Source of the DNA: Ruminiclostridium sp.
Lineage (GTDB): Bacteria > Bacillota > Clostridia > Oscillospirales > Ruminococcaceae
Direction: 5' to 3'
DNA: 38,337 nucleotides
Assembly: GCA_017941355.1 (NCBI GenBank)
Contig: JAGAWN010000073.1
Coordinates: 1-38,337 of the forward strand
A program made the translations under genes and the position numbers. Below the pieces are notes generated by a model. That model did not search any database and was not told the DNA's origin. It saw only the letters and a program-made list of their open reading frames with translations. The first letter of the stretch is position 1. Each line of letters opens with the position of its first letter. This document shows positions 11,528 through 38,337 of the stretch, in pieces.

Positions 11528-13600
11528 TTAATTTGTGTTCGGAGCCTGGCGGTACGCGTGGTCATACAGCATATCCTGCGCTGAAACAGCGATATCCTTA
11601 CCCGGGAACCGCCGTCTGTAACTTCCGTCCGGCTGCATCTCACGCGCCTGTACATTGTCCATGCGAAGCAGCTCAAATATCCCCTCAAGCTGCATTCGGA
11701 GTTCTTCCGAGTACACCGGCAGCGCCACTTCCACACGGCGGAGGGTGTTGCGTGTCATCCAGTCGGCGCTGGAAATGTAATAGGAAGCTTCGCTGCCGTC
11801 TCCGAAAATGTAGATACGGGAGTGTTCAAGATAGCGTCCCACAATGCTTATAATGCTTATATTGTCGGAAAAACCCTCTACTCCGGGCCGCAGACAGCAG
11901 ATGCCGCGGACTACCATTTCCACCCTTACTCCCGCACGGCTTGCTTCTATAAGCTTATCCATAAGCACCTTGTCTGTAAGACTGTTCATTTTAAGCCGGA
12001 TATGTCCCGTACCTCCGTTTTTCTGCTTTGCGATCTCACGGTCTATCAGGTCAATCAGCTTGTTTTGCAGACAATGGGGCGCTACAAGCAGCCGCTGCAT
12101 ATGATCGACAGTCTCACCGAGAGTCAGCGCCTGGAATACCGCCGAAGCCTCGTGTCCTATATCGGGGTCAGCCGTCATTACGGACAGATCCGTGTACAAT
12201 CGGCTTGTCTTTTCGTTGTAATTTCCGGTACCCACCTGAGTGATGTACTTTATCTCGTCACCTTTTCTGCGCAGTATCAGACATAGCTTGCTGTGAACTT
12301 TAAGCCCGTCGATCCCGTATATGACATGACAGCCCGCACGTTCGAGGCGGCGGCTCCACTCGATGTTGTTCTCCTCGTCGAAGCGGGCTTTCAGCTCGAC
12401 AAGAACATCTACCTGCTTGCCGTTCTCTGCGGCTTCCACAAGGCTCTCGACCACTTTGCTGTCGCGCGCGAGACGGTAAAGCGTCATCTTAATGGAGATA
12501 ACGCTGGGGTCATGTGCAGCCTCGCTCAGCATCATCAAGAACGGACGTATGCTCTGATAGGGATAATGCAGCATCTTGTCCCCCTCCTCGATCTGATCGA
12601 GAATGGAGCGCGATTCGTCGAAATCCGGGGATTTCTTCGGCGGGCGGGTCGCGTAGAACAGTTCGGAACGGCTGCGCAGCTGATCGCAGATCCCTGAGAA
12701 GAACGAAACGTCGAGCGGCGTATCATAAGTGAAAACCATGCTGCTGTCAAGCTTTATCTGATCGCAGAGGTTCTTCACCGTTTCACGCTCGATATCGCCG
12801 TTGACTTCTATACGCACGGGGCAAAGTTTCTTGCGCAGCTTCACAACCTCCGCCATGTGGTCACGGTAGTTGAGATCCTCGTCGTAGATACTGTCCGCGT
12901 CGATGTCAGCGTTGCGGGTTATTCTCGCGAGAGCCGAATACTTCACCTTATAACCGCTGAAAACAAGGGGCAGATAGTGCAGTATCAGCTCCTCGGCAAG
13001 CATGAAACAGCCTGTGCGCTCCGGTATCGGGATAAGTCTCGGGAACAACCGGCTGCCGCAGGGAACTATGCCTATCTTGACCTTTTCCTTTTCGCCCTTG
13101 CCGCTTTTGCTGACGAGAGTAGCCACGGCATAGATCTCGCGGTTCTGCAAAAACGGGAAAGACTGCTTCTTGCCAACGACAAAGGTTGACAGCAGCGGCA
13201 TGAAATCGTTCTTGAACAGCGTGCGCAGGTACTTTTCGGACTTTTCGCCGATATCGGAAAAGTCGATCAGCGTTATACCCTGATCCCTGAGCTTTTCGAT
13301 AAGCGAGCGGTAGATGCTGTCACGTCTTTTGCAGAGTTCACGAACTCTTTCTGCGGCAGCGGCTATCTGCTCCGCATAAGTCATTTTCGTTTTGTTGTCG
13401 CGGCTCTCGCTGTCAAGCAGCATCTGATCGTGCAGGCTTCCGATACGCACCATGAAGAATTCATCAAGGTTACTCTGGAAGATAGACAGGAACGTGAGAC
13501 GCTCACACAGCGGCACGCGCTCGTCCTCGGCTTCTTCAAGCACTCTTTCGTTGAATCTGAGCCATGAAAGCTCTCTGTTTTCAAAGCATAAGTTTTCCAT
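11528..13600 (-). CDS. ppk1: Polyphosphate kinase 1
   Basis: A 690-residue cytoplasmic enzyme that makes inorganic polyphosphate reversibly from ATP. The N-terminal domain opens with NRELSWLRFNERVLEEA, then LSIFQSNLDEFFMVR, both highly conserved. The catalytic core contains PYQSIRPFLMML, and ARFDEENNIEWSRRLERAG leads into the phospho-accepting His of the DGLKVHSKLCLI motif. A second PLD-like half follows (GTGNYNEKTSRLYTD, then HIRLKMNSLTDK). Length matches the family. GAGGTAAAAC precedes the start. It is the first gene of a four-gene operon. Confidence 0.96.
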   Translation of the reverse strand: MENLCFENRELSWLRFNERVLEEAEDERVPLCERLTFLSIFQSNLDEFFMVRIGSLHDQMLLDSESRDNKTKMTYAEQIAAAAERVRELCKRRDSIYRSLIEKLRDQGITLIDFSDIGEKSEKYLRTLFKNDFMPLLSTFVVGKKQSFPFLQNREIYAVATLVSKSGKGEKEKVKIGIVPCGSRLFPRLIPIPERTGCFMLAEELILHYLPLVFSGYKVKYSALARITRNADIDADSIYDEDLNYRDHMAEVVKLRKKLCPVRIEVNGDIERETVKNLCDQIKLDSSMVFTYDTPLDVSFFSGICDQLRSRSELFYATRPPKKSPDFDESRSILDQIEEGDKMLHYPYQSIRPFLMMLSEAAHDPSVISIKMTLYRLARDSKVVESLVEAAENGKQVDVLVELKARFDEENNIEWSRRLERAGCHVIYGIDGLKVHSKLCLILRRKGDEIKYITQVGTGNYNEKTSRLYTDLSVMTADPDIGHEASAVFQALTLGETVDHMQRLLVAPHCLQNKLIDLIDREIAKQKNGGTGHIRLKMNSLTDKVLMDKLIEASRAGVRVEMVVRGICCLRPGVEGFSDNISIISIVGRYLEHSRIYIFGDGSEASYYISSADWMTRNTLRRVEVALPVYSEELRMQLEGIFELLRMDNVQAREMQPDGSYRRRFPGKDIAVSAQDMLYDHAYRQAPNTN

Positions 13601-16153: not shown

Positions 16154-16900
16154 ATGACTTTGGACGCACTGAAACTCAACCAGAGCATTTCTAACTACAG
16201 AAATGCAGCCAATTCATATCTCAAAGTGTCTGACGACGCAAAAAAACTCGGTCTCAAGGAAGAACAGACCATTAAGAAAAATGAAAGCCGTTATGATCTT
16301 GACGGAACACTCAAGGAAGAGCATTTGCCCATCGGTTCTTTGGAAAAAGCAAAGAAAAAAGAGGAAGATGCCGAAAAGTTCGGTCTCCTGACCGCAAAGG
16401 ACAGGGATAAAAAGACCGACAAGGCTGACAAAACCGATAAAACCGAAGGAAATATTCTCGATAAAGACGTTCGCGGCAAGGAAAAAGACGATGAAAAAGG
16501 TCTTTTCGGTCTGAAAAAAGACAAAAAAGACGGCTTTGCAAAAGATCCGCCGGACTGTGAATGTGAAACCTGCCGTAAAAGGCGCTATCAGGACGATTCG
16601 GATGATTCTGCGGTCTCGTTCCAGATGCCTACCGCAATGTCTCCCGCTGCCGCAAAAAGCAGAGTGCGGAGCCATGAACTCGAACACGTTCGCAGAGAGG
16701 GTATCAAGGCAAGACAGGAGGGCAAACATATCGTTTCCCAGACTGTCCAGATCAAGACCGATACCTGCAGCGAATGTGGACGCGTATATGTTTCGGGCGG
16801 TCTGACAAGAACCGTTACGCGCGTTGACATGAGAGATTTCCACAGAATGTTTATGCTCGGCTTCGACGGTAAAGACGAACTCGGCAGAGACATAAGCTGA
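16154..16900 (+). CDS. SprA-family putative zinc metalloprotease
   Basis: Two close in-frame ATGs exist, at 16148 and 16154. The second has the better spacing from the G6 site, so it is chosen; the first adds only Met-Asn. The 248-residue protein starts with a short helical segment. A Lys/Asp/Glu-rich, probably disordered region spans about 20-130. A conserved C-terminal domain begins with CECETCRKRRYQDDSDD and contains HELEH (174-178), which fits the HExxH zincin motif. A CSECGRVYVSGGLTRT ribbon follows. This is the pattern of SprA-related putative metalloproteases. No signal peptide is seen. Substrate is unknown. It is a single gene with its own terminator. Confidence 0.75.
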   Translation: MTLDALKLNQSISNYRNAANSYLKVSDDAKKLGLKEEQTIKKNESRYDLDGTLKEEHLPIGSLEKAKKKEEDAEKFGLLTAKDRDKKTDKADKTDKTEGNILDKDVRGKEKDDEKGLFGLKKDKKDGFAKDPPDCECETCRKRRYQDDSDDSAVSFQMPTAMSPAAAKSRVRSHELEHVRREGIKARQEGKHIVSQTVQIKTDTCSECGRVYVSGGLTRTVTRVDMRDFHRMFMLGFDGKDELGRDIS

Positions 16901-26991: not shown

Positions 26992-28178
26992 GTTCTCTCC
27001 CCCGCGATTATGAACACAGGGTTCTGCGCATTCAGCATTGTATGCCCCCCGATTATCCTTGTGCGGGTAACGGAGATCTGCGTGATTTCCGGCGAGATCC
27101 TATGCTCTCTGAACGCAGCCGCCGCTTCATTAAGTGTTTCCAGCGTTACGGCAGTAATCACGGCTTTCTGCGAACCTCCGGGAGACAGAGCGGAGCCGAG
27201 GATCCCTGCGATATTCCCGCCCGCACCGCCTATGAATACCTTGTCCGGACGAGGAAGTTCCCGCAGTATCTCCGGGGCTGCACCGCAAAGCGCGTGAATG
27301 TTGTCGCAGCCGAATTTGCGGGCATTGCTCACTGTCAGCTTTACGGCAGCTTCGTTCTTATCGACAGCACAGACCGTTCCCTCGTTTGCCGCAAGCGCAC
27401 ATTCCACGCTTACCGAGCCTGTGCCGCAGCCGATATCCCACACCGTATCATTATAGCACACATTCAGCTTTGATGCAACTGCCGCCCGCACTTCCGATTT
27501 GGTCATAGGCACATCGCCGCGCGTGAATTCCTCGTCCGGTATTCCGGTACGCACGTTTCTTTCCGGAGCCGCATTTTCGGTAATTAACGCGCAGAGTCCG
27601 GCGCACTGCACCTCCGAAAGCTCTGCGGCGGTTCCGGATATTAACTGCTCATCGGGATAGGAAAGCCTTGCTCCGATATGTACAGCGGTATCGCCCATTC
27701 CATATTCACACAGCCGTTTGCAGATATCCGCGGGAGTTATGCCGCCGCCCAGCAGGAAGAAGCACTTACGATTTCCGCAGACACTGCGGACGATATTCCC
27801 CTGTGCCCCGTGCAGGCTTACAAACTTCATATCATGCCACGAAAGCCCGAGTTTCGCGCACATATAAACAGGCGTGGAAATACCCGGAATTATCTCGGCA
27901 TCACAGCCGGAAAGCCGCTTTTCCAGCAGCCTCGCGCCGCTGAAAAAACCGCAGTCACCGGACATCAGTACAGCCGCGGTGCCGTGTCCGCACTGTCCGA
28001 GAAACGCGCAGATATCGTCGGTTTTCCAGCACTCGAAAACCTGTTTTCCGAGCGCCGCAAAAGGTTCTGTCATGCGCTTTGCGCCGATCAGCACATCTGC
28101 TTTTCCGATCGCGTTTTCCGCTTCGGCAGTAAGTGTTTTCCTGCCGTCCATTCCTATGCCGACAACGTACACTTTCAT
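26988..28178 (-). CDS. cbiET: Fused cobalt-precorrin-7 C5-methyltransferase / C15-methyltransferase-decarboxylase CbiE-CbiT
   Basis: A 396-residue fusion. Residues 1 to about 200 are CbiE, a tetrapyrrole methylase with VVGIGMDGRKTLT at the N-terminus and MSGDCGFFSGARLL. Residues about 208-396 are CbiT, with EFTRGDVPMTKSEVRA, then the Rossmann SAM loop VWDIGCGTGSVSVE and VFIGGAGGNI. The fusion corresponds to CobL of the aerobic pathway and is common in Clostridia. ATGA overlaps on both sides. Confidence 0.95.
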   Translation of the reverse strand: MKVYVVGIGMDGRKTLTAEAENAIGKADVLIGAKRMTEPFAALGKQVFECWKTDDICAFLGQCGHGTAAVLMSGDCGFFSGARLLEKRLSGCDAEIIPGISTPVYMCAKLGLSWHDMKFVSLHGAQGNIVRSVCGNRKCFFLLGGGITPADICKRLCEYGMGDTAVHIGARLSYPDEQLISGTAAELSEVQCAGLCALITENAAPERNVRTGIPDEEFTRGDVPMTKSEVRAAVASKLNVCYNDTVWDIGCGTGSVSVECALAANEGTVCAVDKNEAAVKLTVSNARKFGCDNIHALCGAAPEILRELPRPDKVFIGGAGGNIAGILGSALSPGGSQKAVITAVTLETLNEAAAAFREHRISPEITQISVTRTRIIGGHTMLNAQNPVFIIAGERT

Positions 28179-29910: not shown

Positions 29911-30662
29911 TTTTTTGCCTTTCTGTAACCCGTTCCGAATGTCCCGTCATAAAGTTTTGACAGCTCGTGTCCGCTGTCCAGGACACGTCCGACTATTATA
30001 AGCGCGGTTTTCTTTATCCCGTTCGCAGCCGCCGTTTCGTTCAGCCTACCCACGGTGCAGCGGCATACCTTTTCGTCCTTCCACGTTGCTTTATATACTA
30101 TTGCAGCCGGCGTATCGGGCGAATACCCGCCGCGTATCAGCCGCTCCGACAGTTCGGCTGTCATTCCCGCGCTCAGAAAGATAACCATGGTGCAGCCGTG
30201 CGCCGCAAGTGCCGGAATACTCTCTCCCTCCGGTACGGCAGTCCGTCCCGCCATTCGCGTTACGATCACCGACTGCGACACCCCGGGCAGTGTGTATTCC
30301 GCTTTAAGTGCTGCGGCAGCGCCGAACATGGAACTTACACCCGGCGTTACCCGGTACTCTATGCCGAGTTTTTCGAGTTTCTCAGCCTGTTCACGAAGCG
30401 CGCCGTACAGCGACAGATCTCCGGTCTGCAAACGAACTGTGTGCAGTCCCGCTTTTTCCGCTCTGACGATTATATCCGTGATCTCTTCCAGTGTCAGCCG
30501 CGCACTGTCATATACCGCACAGCCCTTTTTCGCGTACTCAAGCAGTTCCGGATTTACCAGCGAGCCTGCGTAGATTATCACGTCCGCGGACTGCAAAAGC
30601 TTCATTCCGCGCACAGTTATCAGGTCTGCGGCACCGCAGCCCGCTCCTACAAAATCAACCAT
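29907..30662 (-). CDS. cbiF: Cobalt-precorrin-4 C11-methyltransferase CbiF
   Basis: The start is set at MVDFVGAGCGAADLITV, 5 bases after GCGGAGGAG; the upstream ATG is in cbiD. The 251-residue tetrapyrrole methylase has IYAGSLVNPELL at about 30-41, RLQTGDLSLYGALREQ at about 77-92, and TPGVSSMFGAAAAL. IFLSAGM and VYKATWKDEK follow. These distinguish CbiF/CobM from other methylases of the pathway. It overlaps the end of cbiD by 8 bp. Confidence 0.96.
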   Translation of the reverse strand: MVDFVGAGCGAADLITVRGMKLLQSADVIIYAGSLVNPELLEYAKKGCAVYDSARLTLEEITDIIVRAEKAGLHTVRLQTGDLSLYGALREQAEKLEKLGIEYRVTPGVSSMFGAAAALKAEYTLPGVSQSVIVTRMAGRTAVPEGESIPALAAHGCTMVIFLSAGMTAELSERLIRGGYSPDTPAAIVYKATWKDEKVCRCTVGRLNETAAANGIKKTALIIVGRVLDSGHELSKLYDGTFGTGYRKAKK

Positions 30663-31794
30663 TGTACTCCTCCGCAATACGCTTTGTAAGCGCGTCGGCG
30701 CACGATGTTCTCACAAGTATATCACGCTTGTCCGAGAACATCACAGCCGCGATCTCAGCCGCGCCTTTTACTTTTGCTTCAAGGTAATATCCGGCGCGCT
30801 CCGAAAGTATTCCGAGAGTCCCGCGCAGATATCCCGCTTCGTCAAGAATGTCCAGAGCCGCGTCAACCGTGGCACATTCCGGGAGCCTTTTCAGCGTCCC
30901 TGTATCCGCACCCGCAAGCAGCCCGCAGGTAACAAGCACTTCCATACGTCCGTCAGCCTGCGCGGAATGTGTGTTCATTATCCCCGCTCCCAGCTTCACC
31001 AGCTTGCCGATATGCCCTATTATCAATATCCCGCGGAAGCCGAGTTCAAGCGCGATATCCACAGCGTCACCGATAAAGTTGCTGCATTTTACGCTTTTCT
31101 CAACATCGAACGGCATGGCACGCGCTATAAAATTCTCGCCGTAATTTCCGAGAGTAAGGAAAATATTTTCATATCCCCCGGCTTTTCTCATATTCATTTC
31201 TGTCCGTATCGTATCCACAAGCGCGGCATTGCTCATAGGCTCGATGATTCCGCTTGTGCCGATAACGGAAATACCGCCCTCTATCCCGAGCCGCGGATTG
31301 TATGTCCTTTTCGCGATCTCCGCTCCTCCGGGAATACTTATCTCGACCGAAAATCCGCCTTTATATCCGTATTTCTGTGCGATCTCCGAAACCGCCTCCG
31401 ATATCATTCTGCGAGGAACCGAATTTATCGCCCATTCCCCCACAGGCTGATCCAGCCCGGCTTTCGTTACCTTTCCGACACCCTCTCCGCCCGTGATCGT
31501 GATACCGCTTTCCGTCTTTACTACCTTTGCGAAAACGAGTATTCCGTTGGTTATGTCGGGGTCATCACCGCTGTCTTTTTTTACCGCGCATCTCGCGTAC
31601 CCCGACGTGACCTCGGGTTCGTGGATATCGAGAGTGAGTGTTATTCCTTTCGGTGTAGCAAGATCCGTACTGACTGCTATTTTTCCCGTTAATACGCCGA
31701 CAGCCGCAGCCTTAGAGGCTGCGGCGGCGCATGAACCGGTGGTATAGCCGCAGCGGAGAAGTTTCCCGCTGCGGTAAACATATTCGTTCATCAT
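30655..31794 (-). CDS. cbiD: Cobalt-precorrin-5B C1-methyltransferase CbiD
   Basis: A 379-residue SAM-dependent methyltransferase specific to the anaerobic pathway, which supports the cobalt-early route. Seen: RCGYTTGSCAAAASKAAA at 14-31, KDSGDDPDITNG at about 73-84, and VGKVTKAGLDQPVGEWAIN at about 106-124. VIGTSGIIEPMS, GNYGENFIA and HIGKLVKLGAGIMNTHS are also present. Its ATG overlaps the cbiK stop. Confidence 0.97.
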   Translation of the reverse strand: MMNEYVYRSGKLLRCGYTTGSCAAAASKAAAVGVLTGKIAVSTDLATPKGITLTLDIHEPEVTSGYARCAVKKDSGDDPDITNGILVFAKVVKTESGITITGGEGVGKVTKAGLDQPVGEWAINSVPRRMISEAVSEIAQKYGYKGGFSVEISIPGGAEIAKRTYNPRLGIEGGISVIGTSGIIEPMSNAALVDTIRTEMNMRKAGGYENIFLTLGNYGENFIARAMPFDVEKSVKCSNFIGDAVDIALELGFRGILIIGHIGKLVKLGAGIMNTHSAQADGRMEVLVTCGLLAGADTGTLKRLPECATVDAALDILDEAGYLRGTLGILSERAGYYLEAKVKGAAEIAAVMFSDKRDILVRTSCADALTKRIAEEYNG

Positions 31795-33194
31795 GATATG
31801 CTGTCCGACTTGAATGTAAGCTCGCGGTCATACCATTCGGACTTCTTTGTGCTCCATGCGGCACACTGAATGGGAGTGTCCAGCGCAGCTACAGGGATCG
31901 TGTATGTATATGCGCCTTCCGCGTCCTCAACGAACGGGATACACTCGCTCTCGTCAGCGTTAGCGGCTTCTTCGACGGTACCCATGAACAGCTTTCCGTA
32001 ACCGGTGCCGCTGAGTGTCATTACCGCGGTCATTTCCCCGCCCGCAACGGTAAGCTCGCACTTCACGATTTTGAACATGGAAGAACTCGAATCCACATCT
32101 ATGCTGTATGTGCCGTCAGCGAGTGCGGTATCTCCGGCAGATGCGGCGGTATCTTCCGCGCCGAGAGGCTGCGCATTCTTCACATGGTCAACATAAATAT
32201 CACGGATAGCAGGTATCTCGCCAAGTCCGCGAAGAACAGGAACTACTTCAAATCCCTCGTTGGTGAGTATGGTTTTCCAAGAATCTTCCTCGTCCCCCGC
32301 CATATCGTTGTTTGCGTGATCGCCCGCAACAACCATGAGCGGTTCGAGAATAACACGCTTGTAACCGAAGTTCTTCACGAATGCGACCACATCTTCGATC
32401 GACGGCTCGGCTTCGACCGTGCCTATGCAGTAAGGCTTCTTCCCCGCGTCTATGAGCTTCTGCTGAAGTCTGGAGTATGTTGCGTTCGAGGAATGCTCTG
32501 TACCGTGTCCCATGAATACTATAGCTGTCTCGCCGTCATCATATTCCGAAGTTGCGACAGTGATAGCGTTGATTACGTTGGTGTAGTCCTCGTCACTTGT
32601 GAGCAGAGGTGCGCCTACCTTTACACTGTCGAACTTGTCCGCGTTGGCTCTTACGACTTCGATCAGATCATCGTACTCATAACCGCTCATAACGTGCGTG
32701 GGCTGAACCGTCAGATCTTTCACGCCGTCAGCTTCAAGACGCGCAAAAGCTTCATCTACATTGTCGATCTCAAGTCCGTCACGTTCTTTCAGCTTGTCGA
32801 TTATTATCTGGCTTGTGAACGCGCGACGCACATCGTAATCGGGGTTCGCTGCCTGGACCGCTTCCTCGATAGTGCCTATGGTCTTGTCGCGGCTGTCGTT
32901 GTAGCTGGTGCCGAAGCTTACCATGAGTATCACGGGCTTGTCCGCCGCAGTGTCCTCCTCGGGCTTTTCGGTCACTGCCTCGGTTTCCGGTGCGGCAGTC
33001 GTCGTTTCGGTCTCGCTTTTCTCCGCTGCGGCAGTCGTGCTTTCAGTCTCGTTTTCGGCTGCTGCCGCTGTTGCGGAAGTCGTCTCCGCCGCCGTCGATG
33101 TTCCGGATGTTCCGGCATTATTGCCGCATCCTGCCATTGAGATCGCGCAGACCGCACTGAGCAGTGCTGCTGTTGTTCTTGCTGTTCTTGTCAT
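31791..33194 (-). CDS. cbiK: Lipoprotein sirohydrochlorin cobaltochelatase CbiK with C-terminal NEAT-like domain
   Basis: A 467-residue protein. The signal peptide ends in SMAGC (Cys23), and a Thr/Ala/Glu-rich linker spans 25-85. Residues about 86-345 are a class II chelatase of the CbiK type. The metal-site residues are present: H230 (MGHG), E261 or E263 (TVEAEP) and H293 (GDHANND). Residues 359-462 form a beta-sandwich (DGTYSIDVD at the start, YDRELTFKS at the end). It is homologous in pattern to the first gene of this operon and resembles NEAT domains. CbiK normally works in the cytosol, inserting cobalt into sirohydrochlorin. Here lipid-anchoring puts it outside the membrane, as in periplasmic CbiK forms of Desulfovibrio. 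GGAGATATTCAAA precedes the start. Confidence 0.92.
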   Translation of the reverse strand: MTRTARTTAALLSAVCAISMAGCGNNAGTSGTSTAAETTSATAAAAENETESTTAAAEKSETETTTAAPETEAVTEKPEEDTAADKPVILMVSFGTSYNDSRDKTIGTIEEAVQAANPDYDVRRAFTSQIIIDKLKERDGLEIDNVDEAFARLEADGVKDLTVQPTHVMSGYEYDDLIEVVRANADKFDSVKVGAPLLTSDEDYTNVINAITVATSEYDDGETAIVFMGHGTEHSSNATYSRLQQKLIDAGKKPYCIGTVEAEPSIEDVVAFVKNFGYKRVILEPLMVVAGDHANNDMAGDEEDSWKTILTNEGFEVVPVLRGLGEIPAIRDIYVDHVKNAQPLGAEDTAASAGDTALADGTYSIDVDSSSSMFKIVKCELTVAGGEMTAVMTLSGTGYGKLFMGTVEEAANADESECIPFVEDAEGAYTYTIPVAALDTPIQCAAWSTKKSEWYDRELTFKSDSIS

Positions 33195-33243
33195 TTTGAA
33201 TATCTCCTTCTTTATATTTCAAGGTCTTATGACCCTGTTGTCG

Positions 33244-33984
33244 TCACATATATTTATCGTAAAGTTCGCCGGAAAGCCCGAAATGTTCGATCAGAGTGTC
33301 TCTGTCAAGCAGCTCTGAGGGTTTTCCGATACCGGTGCAGCGTCCGTTTCTTATAAGCAGCACGGTGTCGGATATCTTCCCCGCAAGCTCCGTTTCATGC
33401 AGAGACATGACCACCGCTATTCTCCGCTCATGCCGCAGCTTGTCCAGCATTTCGAGAAATGTCAGCTTGTAGTGGATATCGAGAAAAGAAGTCGGTTCGT
33501 CCAGCAGCAGTATCTTCGGTTCGCGGCAGACCGCTCTTGCAAGCATCACTCTCTGCTTCTGTCCGTCGCTTATCTCGCCGAAAGAGCAGTCCGCGAGTTC
33601 CGCCGTATCCGTCAGCCGCATAGCTTCCGCTGCCGCTTTTTTGTCCGCGTCACCCAGCAGTCCGAATGTCCCGGTATAGGGATACCGCCCTGTCTCAACA
33701 ACGTCGCGGCAGGTCATCATATCCGTTTTCGGACGGTCTGTAAGCATTGCCGAGACTTGTTTCGCAAAAGAATTTCTGTTCATATCCGACAAGCTTACTC
33801 CGTCTATGAAGATCTCACCCGACAGCGCCGGTATCTGTCCTGCCAGCGTTTTCAGAAGCGTGGATTTGCCGGAGCCGTTCTGCCCGATAAATGTAAGTAT
33901 CTCCCCGCCGTTCACAGTGAACGATATGTCATGCGCTATCATGCGTTTGCCGTAGCCCGCGCACAGATTCCTAACTTCCAGCAT
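33244..33984 (-). CDS. ABC transporter ATP-binding protein, iron-chelate/cobalamin type (FecE/BtuD)
   Basis: A 246-residue ATPase. Walker A is GQNGSGKSTLLK at about 33-44, the Q-loop follows, and the signature is SDGQKQRVMLARAV (altered SGGQ). Walker B is ILLLDEPTSFLDIHY and the H-loop is VVMSLHETELA. It powers the FecCD-type permease encoded upstream, with which it overlaps by 14 bp. It is followed by a 49-bp gap before cbiK, the largest gap inside the operon. The substrate may be a corrinoid, iron chelate or other tetrapyrrole. Confidence 0.93.
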   Translation of the reverse strand: MLEVRNLCAGYGKRMIAHDISFTVNGGEILTFIGQNGSGKSTLLKTLAGQIPALSGEIFIDGVSLSDMNRNSFAKQVSAMLTDRPKTDMMTCRDVVETGRYPYTGTFGLLGDADKKAAAEAMRLTDTAELADCSFGEISDGQKQRVMLARAVCREPKILLLDEPTSFLDIHYKLTFLEMLDKLRHERRIAVVMSLHETELAGKISDTVLLIRNGRCTGIGKPSELLDRDTLIEHFGLSGELYDKYM

Positions 33985-34984
33985 TGTCCCTGTTCTTTCT
34001 CAACATTATCATCAAAACCACCGGAGCGCCGAGAACCGACGTCACAGTGCTGATACCGAGTTCCGACGGCGATATCACCGTCCTTGCTATTATGTCGCTT
34101 ATTATGCAGAATACTCCCCCGCCGAGAAAACAGGCGGGTATCATTACGATCGGTTTTGCTGTCCCGAACAGCATTTTTATAAGGAACGGCACAGCAATAC
34201 CAACAAATGTCACCGGTCCCGCAAATGCAGCCACACAGCCCGAAAGCAGGCTTGACAGCAGTATCATCGCAATACGCACAGCCTTAATGTTCACGCCCAT
34301 TTCGACCGCGTAGCTTTCACCCAGCTGATACGCGCCGATCGGCTTTGACATGAAGAATACCGCTGTCAGAGAAGCGAAAATTATGACTGCACACACTATG
34401 AGCGACTCCGATCTGAATCCGGAGAATGTACCGACAGACCAGCCGTGCAGGTTCACTATATCCGAATCGTCAGCAAAATTAACGATGATGTCCGTTATCG
34501 CCGTGCAGATATACCCTATCATAACACCGCACACCACAAGCAGCGACATACTACGGATCTTTGACGACATCAGCAGCACTGCCGACATTGCGCACAGCGC
34601 CCCGATAAACGCGGCAAGCGCCATGACTGCCGAGTTCAGCCCGAAGGCTGTCTTTGCGGAAACAATAAGCGCTATCGCCACGGCAAGACGTGCTCCCGAT
34701 GATATACCGAGAACAAAGGGTCCCGCGATCGGATTGTGAAAGTAAGTTTGCAGCATATATCCCGACAGCGCCAGCGCTCCTCCCAGCATCAGCGCCGCAA
34801 GAGTGCGCGGCAGCCGTATTTTAAGCAGTATCATCTCCGCGGTATCGTCCGAACCGCCGCCTATGATGATCTTCAGAGCTTCGGCGGGTGATATGTCCGC
34901 GCTGCCCGCCGAAATGCCGACTGCGGTAAATACAACAATAAGCAGGAGAAGCAGCGCGAATGAAAACACAATTCTTTTCTTCAT
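33971..34984 (-). CDS. FecCD-family ABC permease (iron-chelate/cobalamin importer)
   Basis: A 337-residue integral membrane protein with about ten hydrophobic segments. FecCD hallmarks include RLPRTLAALMLGGALALSGY near residue 55 (shown in the family as the first cytoplasmic coupling motif), NPIAGPFVLGISSGARL, and GPVTFVGIAVPFLIK. It forms a homodimeric channel of the BtuC/FhuB class. Its ATG shares one base with the stop of the binding protein (TGATG). Confidence 0.94.
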   Translation of the reverse strand: MKKRIVFSFALLLLLIVVFTAVGISAGSADISPAEALKIIIGGGSDDTAEMILLKIRLPRTLAALMLGGALALSGYMLQTYFHNPIAGPFVLGISSGARLAVAIALIVSAKTAFGLNSAVMALAAFIGALCAMSAVLLMSSKIRSMSLLVVCGVMIGYICTAITDIIVNFADDSDIVNLHGWSVGTFSGFRSESLIVCAVIIFASLTAVFFMSKPIGAYQLGESYAVEMGVNIKAVRIAMILLSSLLSGCVAAFAGPVTFVGIAVPFLIKMLFGTAKPIVMIPACFLGGGVFCIISDIIARTVISPSELGISTVTSVLGAPVVLMIMLRKNRDNAGS

Positions 34985-36108
34985 CAGTCTATTTTATACA
35001 GGTATGTCGTTTCCTCTCCGGTGTCGGAAAACACAGTATGCAGATCGGTCAGAATGTCGCCGGTGCGCATTATATCCTGATAAACGCTTCGCCCGGTACA
35101 CCATACATCACCGTTTTGCACCGCTCTGAAATCCGCAAGCAGCGGCTCTTTTGCCACAAGCTCGTCAATGCTGTATATCTCGCCGGAAATGTTGCAGTTG
35201 TAAATGATTATATCCGCGTCTTTAGCGTGCAGACAGAACTGTTCGGGTTCGAGAGTCACGGAGGAAGCAGCGTTGTCCTCACCGAGGAAGCTGAAAACAT
35301 TCTCTCCTCCCGCCATTTCTATCATCTTTGTTATGTAGTCGCCGGATTTCCGGGTAACTATCCTGCCGGACGATGTGACATAGAAGAATACAGCCGTTCT
35401 GCCGCAGGACTGAACATCGGCAAGTTCGTCAAAGTGCGCTTTCTGCTCATTGAACAGTTTCTCACCGAGTTCCGGACAGCCCGCTATGCGCGCATAGACC
35501 TTTACCCATTCGCAGCGTCCAAGCGGATGCGTCTCATAGCTTGAACGATCCACAAACACCGGTATGCCGAGTTCTTCCAGCTTTTCTTTTACTTTCGGGA
35601 CGTGTTCCGACATGGTGGACTGCACCGAAAGTCTGCACCCCTGCGCAAGCAGCAGTTCATAGTCAGGCTCACTGTACTTACCCGCATAGAGGATACCGCC
35701 GCTCTCCATTGCGGCACGGGCGTTTTCGATGTACCAGTCCTCCTGCTTTACCGCCGAGAAACGTATGTCTGAAAGTCTGTCCATTGCGTCGTAAAAGCAC
35801 ATCACCGCGCTTGCCGCCATATAGATGAGATCAGGCGAATGAGGTATGACCGTGATATTCTCCGAAAGACCTTCGGGCGCGCTGTCCGTTATCAGATACG
35901 CGCTGCCGTCATTTGTCGTTATCATCGCGTCGCCGTTGTCATATTCGTAAATCGTGAAACAGTCCGCATACGCGTTGCTCACCTTTTCCGGTTCGGAATA
36001 ACCGGCTATGACTGTCGGATCTTTATTCTCAGCCGGAGTTCCGGAACAGCAGCAGAGATTCATTATCAACGCTGCCGAGATCAGAAATGCCGTAATTCTT
36101 TTTATCAT
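34984..36108 (-). CDS. FecB/BtuF-type solute-binding lipoprotein
   Basis: A 374-residue protein with a type II signal peptide ending in NLCCC (lipidated Cys within residues 19-21). Two lobes are joined by a long helix, as in class III binding proteins. The sequence has IRFSAVKQEDWYIE, LLAQGCRLSVQSTMSEHVPK, GIPVFVDRSSYETHPLGRCEWV and AGGENVFSFLGED. The second lobe ends with the QNGDVWCTGRSVYQ motif. It should deliver ligand to the permease encoded next. Family members bind siderophores, haem or cobamides. Cobalamin riboswitch control favours a corrinoid or a precursor. Overlaps of ATGA and TGATG lie on its two sides. Confidence 0.9.
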   Translation of the reverse strand: MIKRITAFLISAALIMNLCCCSGTPAENKDPTVIAGYSEPEKVSNAYADCFTIYEYDNGDAMITTNDGSAYLITDSAPEGLSENITVIPHSPDLIYMAASAVMCFYDAMDRLSDIRFSAVKQEDWYIENARAAMESGGILYAGKYSEPDYELLLAQGCRLSVQSTMSEHVPKVKEKLEELGIPVFVDRSSYETHPLGRCEWVKVYARIAGCPELGEKLFNEQKAHFDELADVQSCGRTAVFFYVTSSGRIVTRKSGDYITKMIEMAGGENVFSFLGEDNAASSVTLEPEQFCLHAKDADIIIYNCNISGEIYSIDELVAKEPLLADFRAVQNGDVWCTGRSVYQDIMRTGDILTDLHTVFSDTGEETTYLYKID

Positions 36109-36527
36109 TTTCTCCTCTTCCCTGTCCTTATGACCGCGATCACGGCGGCTGCCACCGCTGCGGCAGCGACTGCCGAACCCGCGATGATAAGCGGGATATC
36201 CGCACCGTTCCCCGCCGGAAGCGAGGACTTGTCGAATGTTATCACATAGTCTATAAGATGCGGCTCCGACATAGCAAGAGTCTCCGCCTGCACCGAAAGC
36301 GGCTCGTCAAGCGTATATACCGGTATCACGAAAACCGAATTGCCGCTGTCATTCACCGGCAGAAATTCCTTTCCGTCAACTATCATAAGATCGTAATTGG
36401 AACTGCTCCATTCCACCTCAGCGGTCATGCTTTCACCCGATACGGTGAGTTTCACGGGAGAAAGTATATGCGCCTTTCCCGTGCCGCCTGTCATGGTTAT
36501 CTCAACACTGTAGATCCCGTCATTCAT
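36105..36527 (-). CDS. Membrane-anchored NEAT-like domain protein without a signal peptide
   Basis: A 140-residue protein. Residues 2-100 form a single beta-sandwich (DGIYSVEITM, then LTVSGESMTAEVEW, YDLMIVDGKEF, FVIPVYTLDEP, and PHLIDYVITFD). A transmembrane helix lies at about 111-134, with a basic tail (KRRK). The domain matches the C-terminal domain of CbiK in layout and end motifs. The ATG follows GGAGG by 5 bases, and an in-frame TGA directly precedes it, so no signal peptide can be encoded upstream. With a basic tail inside, the domain should face outward. It may bind a metal-tetrapyrrole at the surface and hand it to the binding lipoprotein; this is inferred. It is first in the riboswitch-controlled operon. 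Confidence 0.8.
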   Translation of the reverse strand: MNDGIYSVEITMTGGTGKAHILSPVKLTVSGESMTAEVEWSSSNYDLMIVDGKEFLPVNDSGNSVFVIPVYTLDEPLSVQAETLAMSEPHLIDYVITFDKSSLPAGNGADIPLIIAGSAVAAAAVAAAVIAVIRTGKRRK

Positions 36528-36551
36528 TCAAGCCTCCGATAAATAAAAAAC

Positions 36552-36576
36552 GACGTGCCTTACCGAAAGGCACGTC
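36552..36576 (-). terminator. Second tandem terminator in the cobalamin leader
   Basis: GACGTGCCTT (36552-36561) and AAGGCACGTC (36567-36576) form a perfect 10-bp stem with a 5-base loop. On the minus strand it is followed by GTTTTTTATTT, 15 bases before the ribosome site of the first gene. Confidence 0.88.
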
Positions 36577-36579
36577 ATT

Positions 36580-36611
36580 AAAAAAGGCAGACCAGCAATG
36601 CAAAGTCCGCC
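36580..36611 (-). terminator. First terminator, probable riboswitch expression platform
   Basis: Read on the minus strand, GGCGGAC and GTCTGCC pair across a 12-base loop and are followed by TTTTTT. It lies between the aptamer and the second terminator, the place expected for cobalamin-dependent attenuation. Confidence 0.75.
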
Positions 36612-36624
36612 TCCGTAAACAAAC

Positions 36625-36790
36625 GTGATTTCCGGTTCCGGCAGAAACACAGCCCGCTTCCACGTATCTGACTTATCTGTTCTATTCCGTCCGGGATAAA
36701 ACAGCTTCACAGTGACCGACTCGCGGGGATTTGTGTTTTCCGGAAGAAAACACGCACCCACATTCCGTGTCCCGAAACATATCGTTCGGT
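36625..36790 (-). promoter_or_regulatory. Cobalamin riboswitch aptamer
   Basis: On the minus strand the leader contains the B12-box-like core AAGTCAGATAC (36664-36674) followed by GTGG. It is preceded by a CCCGCGAGTC, GGTCACTGTGA stretch (36707-36727), the usual conserved block, and a GGTGCGTGT upstream arm. The order and spacing match the cobalamin riboswitch class. High adenosylcobalamin or another cobamide should stabilise the aptamer and stop transcription at the downstream hairpins. The exact boundaries are approximate. Confidence 0.87.
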
Positions 36791-36823
36791 TGAAGCAAAA
36801 GCTATATATTCATTTGATATATT

Positions 36824-36852
36824 ATTATACCATATAGTGCCGAGATAGTCAA
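36824..36852 (-). promoter_or_regulatory. Promoter of the cobalamin operon
   Basis: On the minus strand: TTGACT (36847-36852), a 17-bp spacer and TATAAT (36824-36829). Transcription would start about 30 bp upstream of the riboswitch. It is the only clear promoter found for the 17-kb operon. Confidence 0.85.
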
Positions 36853-37049
36853 TTAGGTCTTATGAACAAATTCTTATTATATGAGTGCAGTTTTTTTGTG
36901 CGGAGGTGACGATAAACATCCTAACGATACCCGAAAAACATAATAAGACACGGGCATACAAACGTCTGTTCCTGTAACGGAAAGGCGGTGCTGTTATTAT
37001 CAAATAGTGCTGACAGATCGTATTGGTTTTTCACTGGTGTGATGAGGTA
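36853..37049. other. Intergenic stretch between the cobalamin promoter and the UvrA-like promoter
   Basis: About 200 bp with no convincing gene. Two very short frames (15 and 23 codons) have no supporting homology I can defend. No terminator hairpin or tRNA is seen. Confidence 0.6.
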
Positions 37050-37078
37050 TTGACAAATATACTTCTATACGATAAAAT
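37050..37078 (+). promoter_or_regulatory. Promoter of the UvrA-like gene
   Basis: Perfect TTGACA (37050-37055), a 17-bp spacer and TAAAAT (37073-37078), 39 bp before the start codon. Confidence 0.8.
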
Positions 37079-37117
37079 TGTATATGATATTTCAGATAAA
37101 GGAATGGGAGAAATATA

Positions 37118-38337
37118 ATGTCAGACAAAAAAACAAATATACCCGCGAATATCGAAGTACGCGGGGCAAGAGTACACAATCTGAAAAATGTCGATGTGGA
37201 TATACCTCTGAACGGTATAGTCGGGATAGCGGGAGTTTCCGGCTCCGGCAAGTCCTCACTTGCTCTCGGTGTGCTGTACGCCGAGGGTTCACGCAGATAT
37301 CTCGAATCGCTTTCCACATACACAAGACGGCGGATGACAGGAGCCGCGAAAGCGCAGGTAGATGAAGTGCGGTATGTACCGGCAGCTCTCGCGCTTCACC
37401 AGCGTCCCGGAGTTCCGGGAATACGCAGCACCTTCGGGACTTCCACCGAGCTGCTGAACAGCCTGAGGCTGATGTTCTCGCGGCTGTCGGTATATAAATG
37501 CCCGAACGGTCATGATGTCCCACCTACACTCGGACACGCCGCAATGACGGAGATATGCTGTCCGGTATGCGGCGAGAATGTGACAACTATCGGTGCGGAG
37601 GAGCTTGCGTTCAACAGTGCGGGAGCCTGCCCCGAATGTGAGGGGACGGGAATTGTGCGAACCGTCGATGAAAGCACACTCGTTCCCGATGAATCGCTAA
37701 CCATTGACGAGGGCGCGGTGCTTCCGTGGCAGACGCTCATGTGGTCGCTTATGAAGGATATAGCCCGCGAAATGGGAGTGCGGACGAATGTGCCGTTCTG
37801 TGAGCTTACCGACAAGGAAAAGGATATCGTGTATCACGGCGCTCCCGAAAAGAAGCATATCCTATACATGAACGAAAAGACCGGCATGGCAGGCGAAATG
37901 GATTTCACCTATTATAACGCGGTTTATACAGTTGAGAATGCGCTCTCAAAGGTAAAGGACGAAACGGGCATGAAGCGTGTCGAGAAGTTCCTTAAACAGG
38001 GAAACTGCCCTTGCTGCAAAGGAACAAGGCTTTCGGAGCGCGCAAGGTCACTGAAACTGCGCGGAGTATCGCTCGATGAAGTCTGCACACTGCCGCTGTC
38101 GGAGCTTATCGAATGGGTGAACGGCGTACCCGCGTCGCTGCCGGAGGAAATGCGGCCGATGGCGGAGAGTATATGCGAAGCCTTTCACCATACCGCAAAG
38201 CGCCTTGTTGACCTCGGACTGTCGTACTTATCGCTTGACCGCGCGGCTTCCACGCTCTCTACCGGAGAACGCCAGCGCACACAGCTTGCACGCGCCGTCC
38301 GCAACCGTACCACAGGCATACTCTATGTGCTTGACGA
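37118..38337 (+). CDS. Short UvrA-like ABC ATPase (partial at window edge)
   Basis: The ATG follows GGGAGAAATATA, and the frame stays open for 406 codons to the window end. The N-terminus has the UvrA opening [19 protein letters not shown] and the Walker [20 protein letters not shown]. It is followed by [13 protein letters not shown], Cys pairs (CPVCG, then CPECEGTG) and [13 protein letters not shown]. The first ABC signature [14 protein letters not shown] lies at about residue 379, roughly 100 residues earlier than in full-length repair UvrA. This places it with the short UvrA paralogues, some tied to drug self-protection, rather than the core excinuclease subunit. The second ATPase half is outside the window. 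Confidence 0.88.

Follow-up and report, generated by a model that had tools for sequence, protein, structure and literature searches.

An exported CbiK with NEAT-type domains and an ABC importer as a candidate acquisition module for B12 precursors in Clostridia

The minus strand of a 38,337-nucleotide stretch of Ruminiclostridium sp. DNA (contig JAGAWN010000073.1, assembly GCA_017941355.1, positions 1 to 38,337; the whole stretch is hereafter called the window) carries a five-gene operon (36527 to 31791) that is followed by cbiD and the remaining cbi/cob cluster. The operon encodes a NEAT-fold protein, a FecB-type binding lipoprotein, a FecCD permease, an ATP-binding cassette (ABC) ATPase and a CbiK chelatase with a lipobox; genes, order and strand agree with an initial annotation made from the DNA alone. 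We consider it fairly probable that the five genes together serve as a B12-repressible module for acquiring a sirohydrochlorin-type tetrapyrrole, in which CbiK changes the metal of the ring outside the membrane and the product is imported; the ligand, the direction of metal transfer and the import of the product are what we infer here. The initial annotation had proposed such a route of capture, metal insertion (or removal) and import, and it is borne out in part. The NEAT fold of the first gene, the lipobox and chelatase residues of CbiK, the absence of CbiM, riboswitches in relatives, an order-wide pattern of gene presence and ATPase–CbiD fusions speak for it. The window genome also has a cytosolic CbiK and HemB with a hem gene set, which speak against a strict reading of the route, and the surface location claimed for the first gene is not supported.

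The module would work as follows: (i) NEAT-fold domains outside the membrane would hold a sirohydrochlorin-type tetrapyrrole; (ii) the lipoprotein CbiK would change the ring metal there, most likely by inserting cobalt, possibly after stripping another metal; (iii) the binding protein would hand the product to the FecCD/ABC importer, which would deliver it to the cytosolic cbi enzymes; and (iv) plentiful B12 would switch the operon off through a riboswitch. In relatives, the module would replace the usual anaerobic start of the pathway, in which hem genes make the ring, CbiMNQO brings in cobalt and cytosolic CbiK inserts it. More tentatively, the cobalt of B12 may enter these cells already within a tetrapyrrole: surface CbiK would load or swap the metal of sirohydrochlorin or siroheme from neighbours, NEAT domains with a His axial ligand would hold the ring, the ABC importer would carry it, and both ring synthesis and free-cobalt import could be lost.

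Exported CbiK and NEAT-type domains

The window CbiK has the fold and family of CbiK (Pfam CbiK, E 1.8e-87, residues 89–341); it scores 256.6 bits against the 400-bit cut-off of the NCBIfam equivalog NF047852. The lipobox described earlier is present (MTRTARTTAALLSAVCAISMAGC, with Cys23), so that the protein is predicted to be a lipoprotein rather than a cytosolic enzyme. The chelatase residues H230, E261, E263 and H293 also stand where they had been placed. In an alignment of 29 CbiK rows (28 exported and one cytosolic), H230, E261 and H293 are identical in 29/29 and E263 in 20/29, and the catalytic His pair of a CbiK cobaltochelatase (H230 and H293) is thus found in every row; for Salmonella CbiK, His145 and His207 are named (PMC7689651).

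Among genomes sampled from the order, CbiK has a lipobox in 33 of the 35 that have both the NEAT-like domain and CbiK (in the two exceptions, G084 and G342, the CbiK N-terminus is cut off or unresolved), and in one of the 60 other CbiK loci (G386). In the best 80 of at least 592 loci found by scanning species genomes, a lipobox is present in 63 CbiK frames and absent from seven, frames at contig ends being excluded; the seven include L287, with a signal peptide by eye, and L283, with no clear start. The exported forms make up one clade (99/89, 43 rows) in a 103-row CbiK tree, and this clade also includes the cytosolic CbiK copy of the window genome and the unresolved row L132.

Some CbiK loci have unusual architectures. 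In G386 (L245:6578–10832, +), a BtuC-like permease, an ATPase, the lipoprotein CbiK and a binding protein stand in a row beside cbi genes; this CbiK is flanked by the Btu-like ATPase and the binding protein, and no NEAT domain was called. A tandem CbiK duplication within one lipoprotein (CbiK–CbiK–NEAT type B, 705 aa) is found in G011 (L016:6355–8472, −), and an apparently similar tandem in G034 (L015:15154–16753, +) is interrupted by a contig end.

As noticed initially, the C-terminal domain of CbiK (type B) matches the first gene of the operon (type A), with a BLASTP E value of 2e-8 and 29% identity for this single pair; profile–profile comparison of the two types gives a probability of 98.8 (E 1.2e-16). 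Both domains had been called NEAT-like. This holds for type A, which has the NEAT beta-sandwich fold, while type B has no NEAT match of its own and is connected to NEAT by its homology to type A. At E≤0.1, PF05031 recognises 28 of 39 aligned type A members, with 2.5e-6 as the best value, but not the protein of the window, and neither Pfam nor NCBIfam gives a NEAT match on the window NEAT protein. The type B profile has no NEAT match among PDB sequences, and fold comparison of the whole CbiK returned chelatases throughout, so that it bears on the chelatase domain. The haem ligand motif of NEAT domains is YxxxY. At the equivalent site, inferred from the hairpin of the model, the first position is His in 34, Tyr in four and Arg in one of the 39 members, and the second is Tyr in 39/39.

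We do not uphold the description of the first gene as a surface protein: its NEAT domain begins at the very start of the protein, a signal peptide is absent and a stop codon immediately precedes the ATG; a comparable start is seen in close relatives of the window operon. In distant relatives, NEAT-type domains are found, by eye, in lipoproteins or behind signal peptides. In the proposed module, the NEAT domain of the window's first gene would lie outside the membrane.

Pfam confirms the FecB-type protein, FecCD permease and ATPase that had been placed between the first gene and cbiK. The NCBIfam equivalog cut-offs for BtuFCD are not reached in the window (BtuC 200.5 of 334; ATPase 180.1 of 537; no match for BtuF).

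Distribution, missing pathway genes and B12 control

Of 394 genomes sampled from the order, 38 match the NEAT-type domain profile, and 35 of the 38 also have CbiK. Importer genes adjoin in 30 of these 35; they do not in G306, G337 and G364, nor in G288 and G136, where contigs end. CbiK usually comes first, followed by a lipoprotein that carries type B and type A domains in tandem, and then by the binding protein, the permease and the ATPase. The best 80 of the at least 592 loci in species genomes belong to records named Oscillospiraceae, Lachnospiraceae, Coriobacteriia and others; among them are Lachnospiraceae bacterium GAM79, a complete genome, and Gemmiger formicilis ATCC 27749. The Gemmiger locus (L324) comprises CbiK, a lipoprotein with two NEAT-like domains, a binding protein, an ATPase–CbiD fusion, more cbi genes and a cobalamin riboswitch recognised by Rfam.

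We then compared gene content among the 90 genomes with CbiK. After removal of G252 (weak CbiK match) and of G386 and G396 (unusual N-termini), 26 genomes have only exported CbiK, nine have both forms and 52 have only cytosolic CbiK. Strong CbiM matches (E<1e-30, which applies to 57 of the 81 genomes with a CbiM match) are present in 3/26 exported-only versus 37/52 cytosolic-only genomes (p 6e-7) and in 1/9 with both forms; for any CbiM match (E≤0.001) the counts are 6/26 versus 38/52 (p 3e-5). Of the 52 cytosolic-only genomes, 39 were searched for HemB, which is present in 3/26 exported-only versus 32/39 cytosolic-only genomes (p 2e-8) and in 9/9 with both forms; all these p values are from Fisher tests that ignore kinship. 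The same pattern occurs within single families: in f13, CbiM is found in 0/6 exported-only versus 21/23 cytosolic-only genomes and HemB in 2/6 versus 17/18, and in f14 HemB is found in 0/4 versus 7/7.

Many exported-only genomes have corrin-ring genes nonetheless. These stand in the same cluster in 17 of the 26, and among the 17 HemB is present in one (G220) and strong CbiM in two (G100 and G337), HemA, C and D being outside the search. G243 and G390 contain CbiL and a cbi/cob cluster with neither HemB nor CbiM; G136, at a contig end, has CbiA and CbiC only. The operon contigs of G022 and G004 are short (5.8 and 4.5 kb) and were left out of any argument that corrin-ring genes are absent. Across 41 operon genomes there is no separate CbiX, as the CbiX matches in 33 of them all fall on CbiK itself. 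The exported CbiK is the only CbiK over the cut-off in 26 of the 35 genomes; in those with corrin-ring genes, no other candidate was found for inserting the cobalt required by CbiL and the later enzymes. Taken together, the order-wide counts support the view that exported CbiK stands in for the set of cytosolic CbiK, CbiM and HemB.

An acquisition module predicts fusions between importer and pathway, and ATPase–CbiD fusions fit this prediction. Among 125 loci examined, ATPase and CbiD are fused in one frame at eight loci in seven genomes (L112, L118, L122 = L273, L274, L310, L311 and L324), two of which are Gemmiger formicilis records, and Pfam recognises both ATPase and CbiD in 4/4 fusion proteins tested. 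A triple fusion of permease, ATPase and CbiD was considered for the longest frames (e.g. 963 and 983 aa) and rejected, since no domains besides ATPase and CbiD are recognised; the part of the frame that precedes the ATPase, which has no recognised domain, is read as an out-of-frame overlap with the permease.

The operon had also been placed under B12 control. Support for this is found in relatives and in the sharing of a divergent leader; the window leader itself has no Rfam match: no cobalamin riboswitch is found in the window at the gathering score, nor at E≤1 on 36000–37300. Among orthologous operons chosen for scanning, RF00174 is present at the gathering score in 23 of 30 loci (5/7, 7/8, 6/8 and 5/7), lying between −160 and +239 bases relative to the first gene called in the operon (at L111 the closest called frame is spurious, and 141 bases separate the riboswitch from the downstream start of cbiK); the seven loci without it are L117, L118, L119, L252, L253, L275 and L304. 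Over 113 nt, the window leader shares 85% identity with that of a second ABC operon of the window genome (G000:C271:352–459), and this second leader matches RF00174 with 22.2 bits (E 0.0025), below the gathering score of 31.5 bits. The divergent leader is common to nine sequences, including L252 and L253 from the riboswitch misses, and shows two-sided changes in 12 of 40 predicted pairs; positions 36528–36805 fold better than 200 shuffles (z −4.3). For a relative of the divergent leader, Rfam returned only RF01482 (E 3.3, 15 bits). From these sequence features we read the window leader as a putative divergent cobalamin riboswitch with a terminator (Table 1).

Table 1. Features of the operon and its flanks in the window
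Feature	Position	Strand	Remarks
Putative divergent cobalamin-riboswitch-like leader	36603..36812	−	Conserved core ~36621–36732; B12-box-like AAGTCAGATACGTGG
Terminator-like hairpin and T run, just 5' of the first gene	36541..36576	−	Sequence reading; also in the predicted fold
NEAT-fold protein (type A)	36105..36527	−	140 aa; C-terminal membrane helix; no signal peptide
FecB-type substrate-binding lipoprotein	34984..36108	−	Peripla_BP_2, E 8.3e-27; lipobox-like N-terminus by eye from the translation
FecCD permease	33971..34984	−	PF01032, E 2.6e-74; best NCBIfam model BtuC, below cut-off
ABC ATPase	33244..33984	−	Pfam; best NCBIfam model corrinoid ATPase, below cut-off
Lipoprotein CbiK	31791..33194	−	467 aa; chelatase aa 89–341; NEAT-like type B aa ~358–467
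cbiD, first gene of the adjoining cbi/cob cluster	30655..31794	−	TIGR00312, 396.9 bits against a cut-off of 200

The adjoining cbiD overlaps the end of cbiK by 4 bases. In the downstream cluster, cbiJ (named by eye), which lies between cbiH and cbiET in G011, G002 and G034, is missing from the window at 28175–28178. Several neighbourhoods in other genomes are distinctive. In G034 (L015:11185–11708, +), a flavodoxin gene (NCBIfam flav_short, over cut-off) separates the divergent leader from the NEAT gene; a similar gene start follows the leader in G011, G007, L251 and L253, and the window has none. Near the operon of G100 (L118), a NiCo riboswitch and two c-di-GMP-I riboswitches are present at 13450–13521 (−), 16565–16660 (+) and 16811–16897 (+). 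Genus g112 (L132, L134, L136 and L140) has a CbiL gene together with an ATPase, an ABC-2-like permease (by eye) and a lipoprotein with NEAT-like domains, and in G347 (L134) this gene set is placed after the divergent cobalamin-like leader. The gene set of g112 might be a tetrapyrrole exporter.

Contrary evidence and competing explanations

The lack of CbiMNQO that had been noted for the window extends, as regards CbiM, to the whole window genome, where CbiM has no match; the genome has its own CbiL on contig C8. Several observations nevertheless weigh against the proposed module, beginning with this genome. It contains HemB with a hem gene set around it, and HemA, C, D/SUMT, L and a CysG-N-like gene are recognised by similarity to G011 genes named by eye, so that it does not belong to the tetrapyrrole precursor salvagers, which lack early ring genes. 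It also has a second, cytosolic CbiK next to CbiL on contig C271. With the hem set and this CbiK, the window genome could make and load sirohydrochlorin inside the cell. The operon therefore need not be its sole source of ring or cobalt, and may be dispensable in this genome. In G011 the same hem set lies beside sulfate assimilation genes (by eye), which suggests that the set serves a siroheme role.

Contig C271 (L023, 1–8138), about 8 kb long, carries a Btu-like ABC operon together with CbiL and the cytosolic CbiK. Along 3759 bases its DNA shows 99.4% identity to a contig from G002, another species, whereas the operon proteins of the window genome and G002 are 64–78% identical, which points to recent transfer or cross-binning. 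We therefore rejected the cytosolic CbiK on C271 as settling the matter: the contig is doubtful and its CbiK nests inside the exported clade. Among the findings that the initial annotation had named as telling against its proposal, a cytosolic CbiK is the one that appeared; CbiM has no match in the genome, and the fold of type A is that of NEAT.

The order-wide counts have contrary points as well. In f14 the CbiM pattern is reversed (3/4 exported-only versus 7/14 cytosolic-only genomes), and in f1 and f24 the differences, although in the same direction, are not significant; the Fisher p values are blind to kinship throughout. Cytosolic-only genomes too are without HemB in 7/39 and without strong CbiM in 15/52. 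HemB is present in three of six further genus members with the operon (G002, G007, G011, G022, G024 and G034), which lie outside the order-wide counts and were searched for HemB, not for CbiM. Second, very weak CbiK matches occur in G066 and G084 (E 4.5e-5 and 5.5e-4), and no CbiL match exceeds the cut-off in G011, G015 and G022, the last being a weak case. In eight of the 26 exported-only genomes (G191, G203, G237, G265, G288, G306, G354 and G364), the fetched stretches, as distinct from the whole genomes, contain no cbi genes. Among cobalt importers, which also include NiCoT and CbtAB, the search covered CbiM. Finally, the nearest exported relative with a solved structure, FetB, is said to act on protoporphyrin (PMC13402209).

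The strongest rival explanation is corrinoid salvage, in which the importer takes up cobinamide or other corrinoids, the NEAT domain binds a corrinoid and the exported CbiK handles corrinoids or is a relict. The best NCBIfam models for the importer, BtuC and the corrinoid ATPase, point this way, though both score under their cut-offs, as do the eight exported-only genomes without nearby cbi genes and several Lachnospiraceae loci where only late genes (CbiP, CobT, CobU, CobS, CbiB and CobD) follow the operon within the stretch. B12 riboswitches, too, often stand on uptake genes. We nonetheless regard corrinoid salvage as unlikely. It leaves unexplained the chelatase residues that are invariant in 29/29 rows, and the missing HemB where corrin-ring genes are present; it is also at odds with an exported CbiK that is the sole CbiK over the cut-off in 26/35 genomes without a separate CbiX, with corrin-ring genes in the cluster in 17/26, and with an ATPase fused in seven genomes to CbiD, a corrin-ring enzyme.

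Acquisition of iron from haem or porphyrin, as proposed for Porphyromonas IhtB/FetB (we take IhtB to be the FetB of Porphyromonas gingivalis), would have the exported CbiK strip iron from haem caught by NEAT domains. This appears improbable, to a greater degree than corrinoid salvage, given the cobalamin riboswitch in 23/30 scanned loci, the linkage to cbi genes, the ATPase–CbiD fusions and the inverse association with CbiM and HemB. We give least credence to tetrapyrrole salvage without external metal insertion, where CbiK would bind and hand over the ring or remove a metal, and cobalt would arrive by another importer and be inserted inside. The missing HemB alone would explain ring import, and cytosolic CbiK is also present in nine of the 35 operon genomes (that of the window genome, G000, on the doubtful contig); but the other 26 have no cytosolic CbiK over the cut-off, no separate CbiX occurs in the 41 operon genomes and CbiM is mostly missing.

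Relation to known systems and significance

The acquisition module with external metal change that we favour shares parts with several known systems. In haem uptake, NEAT domains of the Isd/Hbp type pair with FecB/FecCD-type importers. The operon resembles them in this pairing and in the fold, with Pfam NEAT found in 28/39 relatives at E≤0.1; it differs in that type A has H-x-x-x-Y for YxxxY in 34/39, and in that a CbiK chelatase and the B12 regulon are coupled to it. At the cell surface of Porphyromonas, FetB is said to produce manganese protoporphyrin (PMC13402209), and the Iht system is described as coupling a FetB-like protein to an importer (PMC10913741). Like Iht/Fet, the window operon joins a lipoprotein CbiK homologue to a binding protein, a permease and an ATPase; Iht/Fet differs in being proposed to act on haem, and the accessible part of the source mentions neither a NEAT domain nor a B12 riboswitch for it (PMC13402209). 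The periplasmic CbiK of Desulfovibrio vulgaris (2xvx and 2xvz), with a solved chain of 269 residues, is without the NEAT-like domain, unlike the window CbiK.

The start by cytosolic CbiK, CbiMNQO and Hem enzymes uses the same chelatase family and the same downstream cbi genes as the operon. CbiK is described as taking cobalt at its cellular availability and inserting it into sirohydrochlorin (PMC7689651). By contrast, the operon chelatase has a lipobox, and strong CbiM and HemB are mostly absent in exported-only genomes. A further counterpart is the group of tetrapyrrole precursor salvagers of Shelton et al., primarily Firmicutes with corrin-ring genes but without the first steps of ring synthesis, which are 78% host-associated among classified genomes (PMC6461909). 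Dependence on 5-aminolevulinate was tested in three of their species, and the accessible part of that paper names no uptake route for later precursors (PMC6461909); the operon is a candidate for such a route.

In brief, the parts are known; their combination, in which NEAT domains, an exported CbiK, an importer and a B12 riboswitch would replace HemB, CbiM and the cytosolic CbiK, appears in none of the titles and abstract openings that searches of open-licence papers listed. The operon is B12-regulated in relatives and present in many genomes of Clostridia and Coriobacteriia, mostly where HemB and CbiM are missing, and it provides a concrete importer, chelatase and binding domain as candidates for testing. 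If the proposed acquisition is true, cobalt insertion for B12 can occur outside the cytosol, and gut microbes share a B12 precursor. Pickup of a ready-made ring and cobalt from outside would help to explain how bacteria without the first steps of the pathway could synthesize B12.

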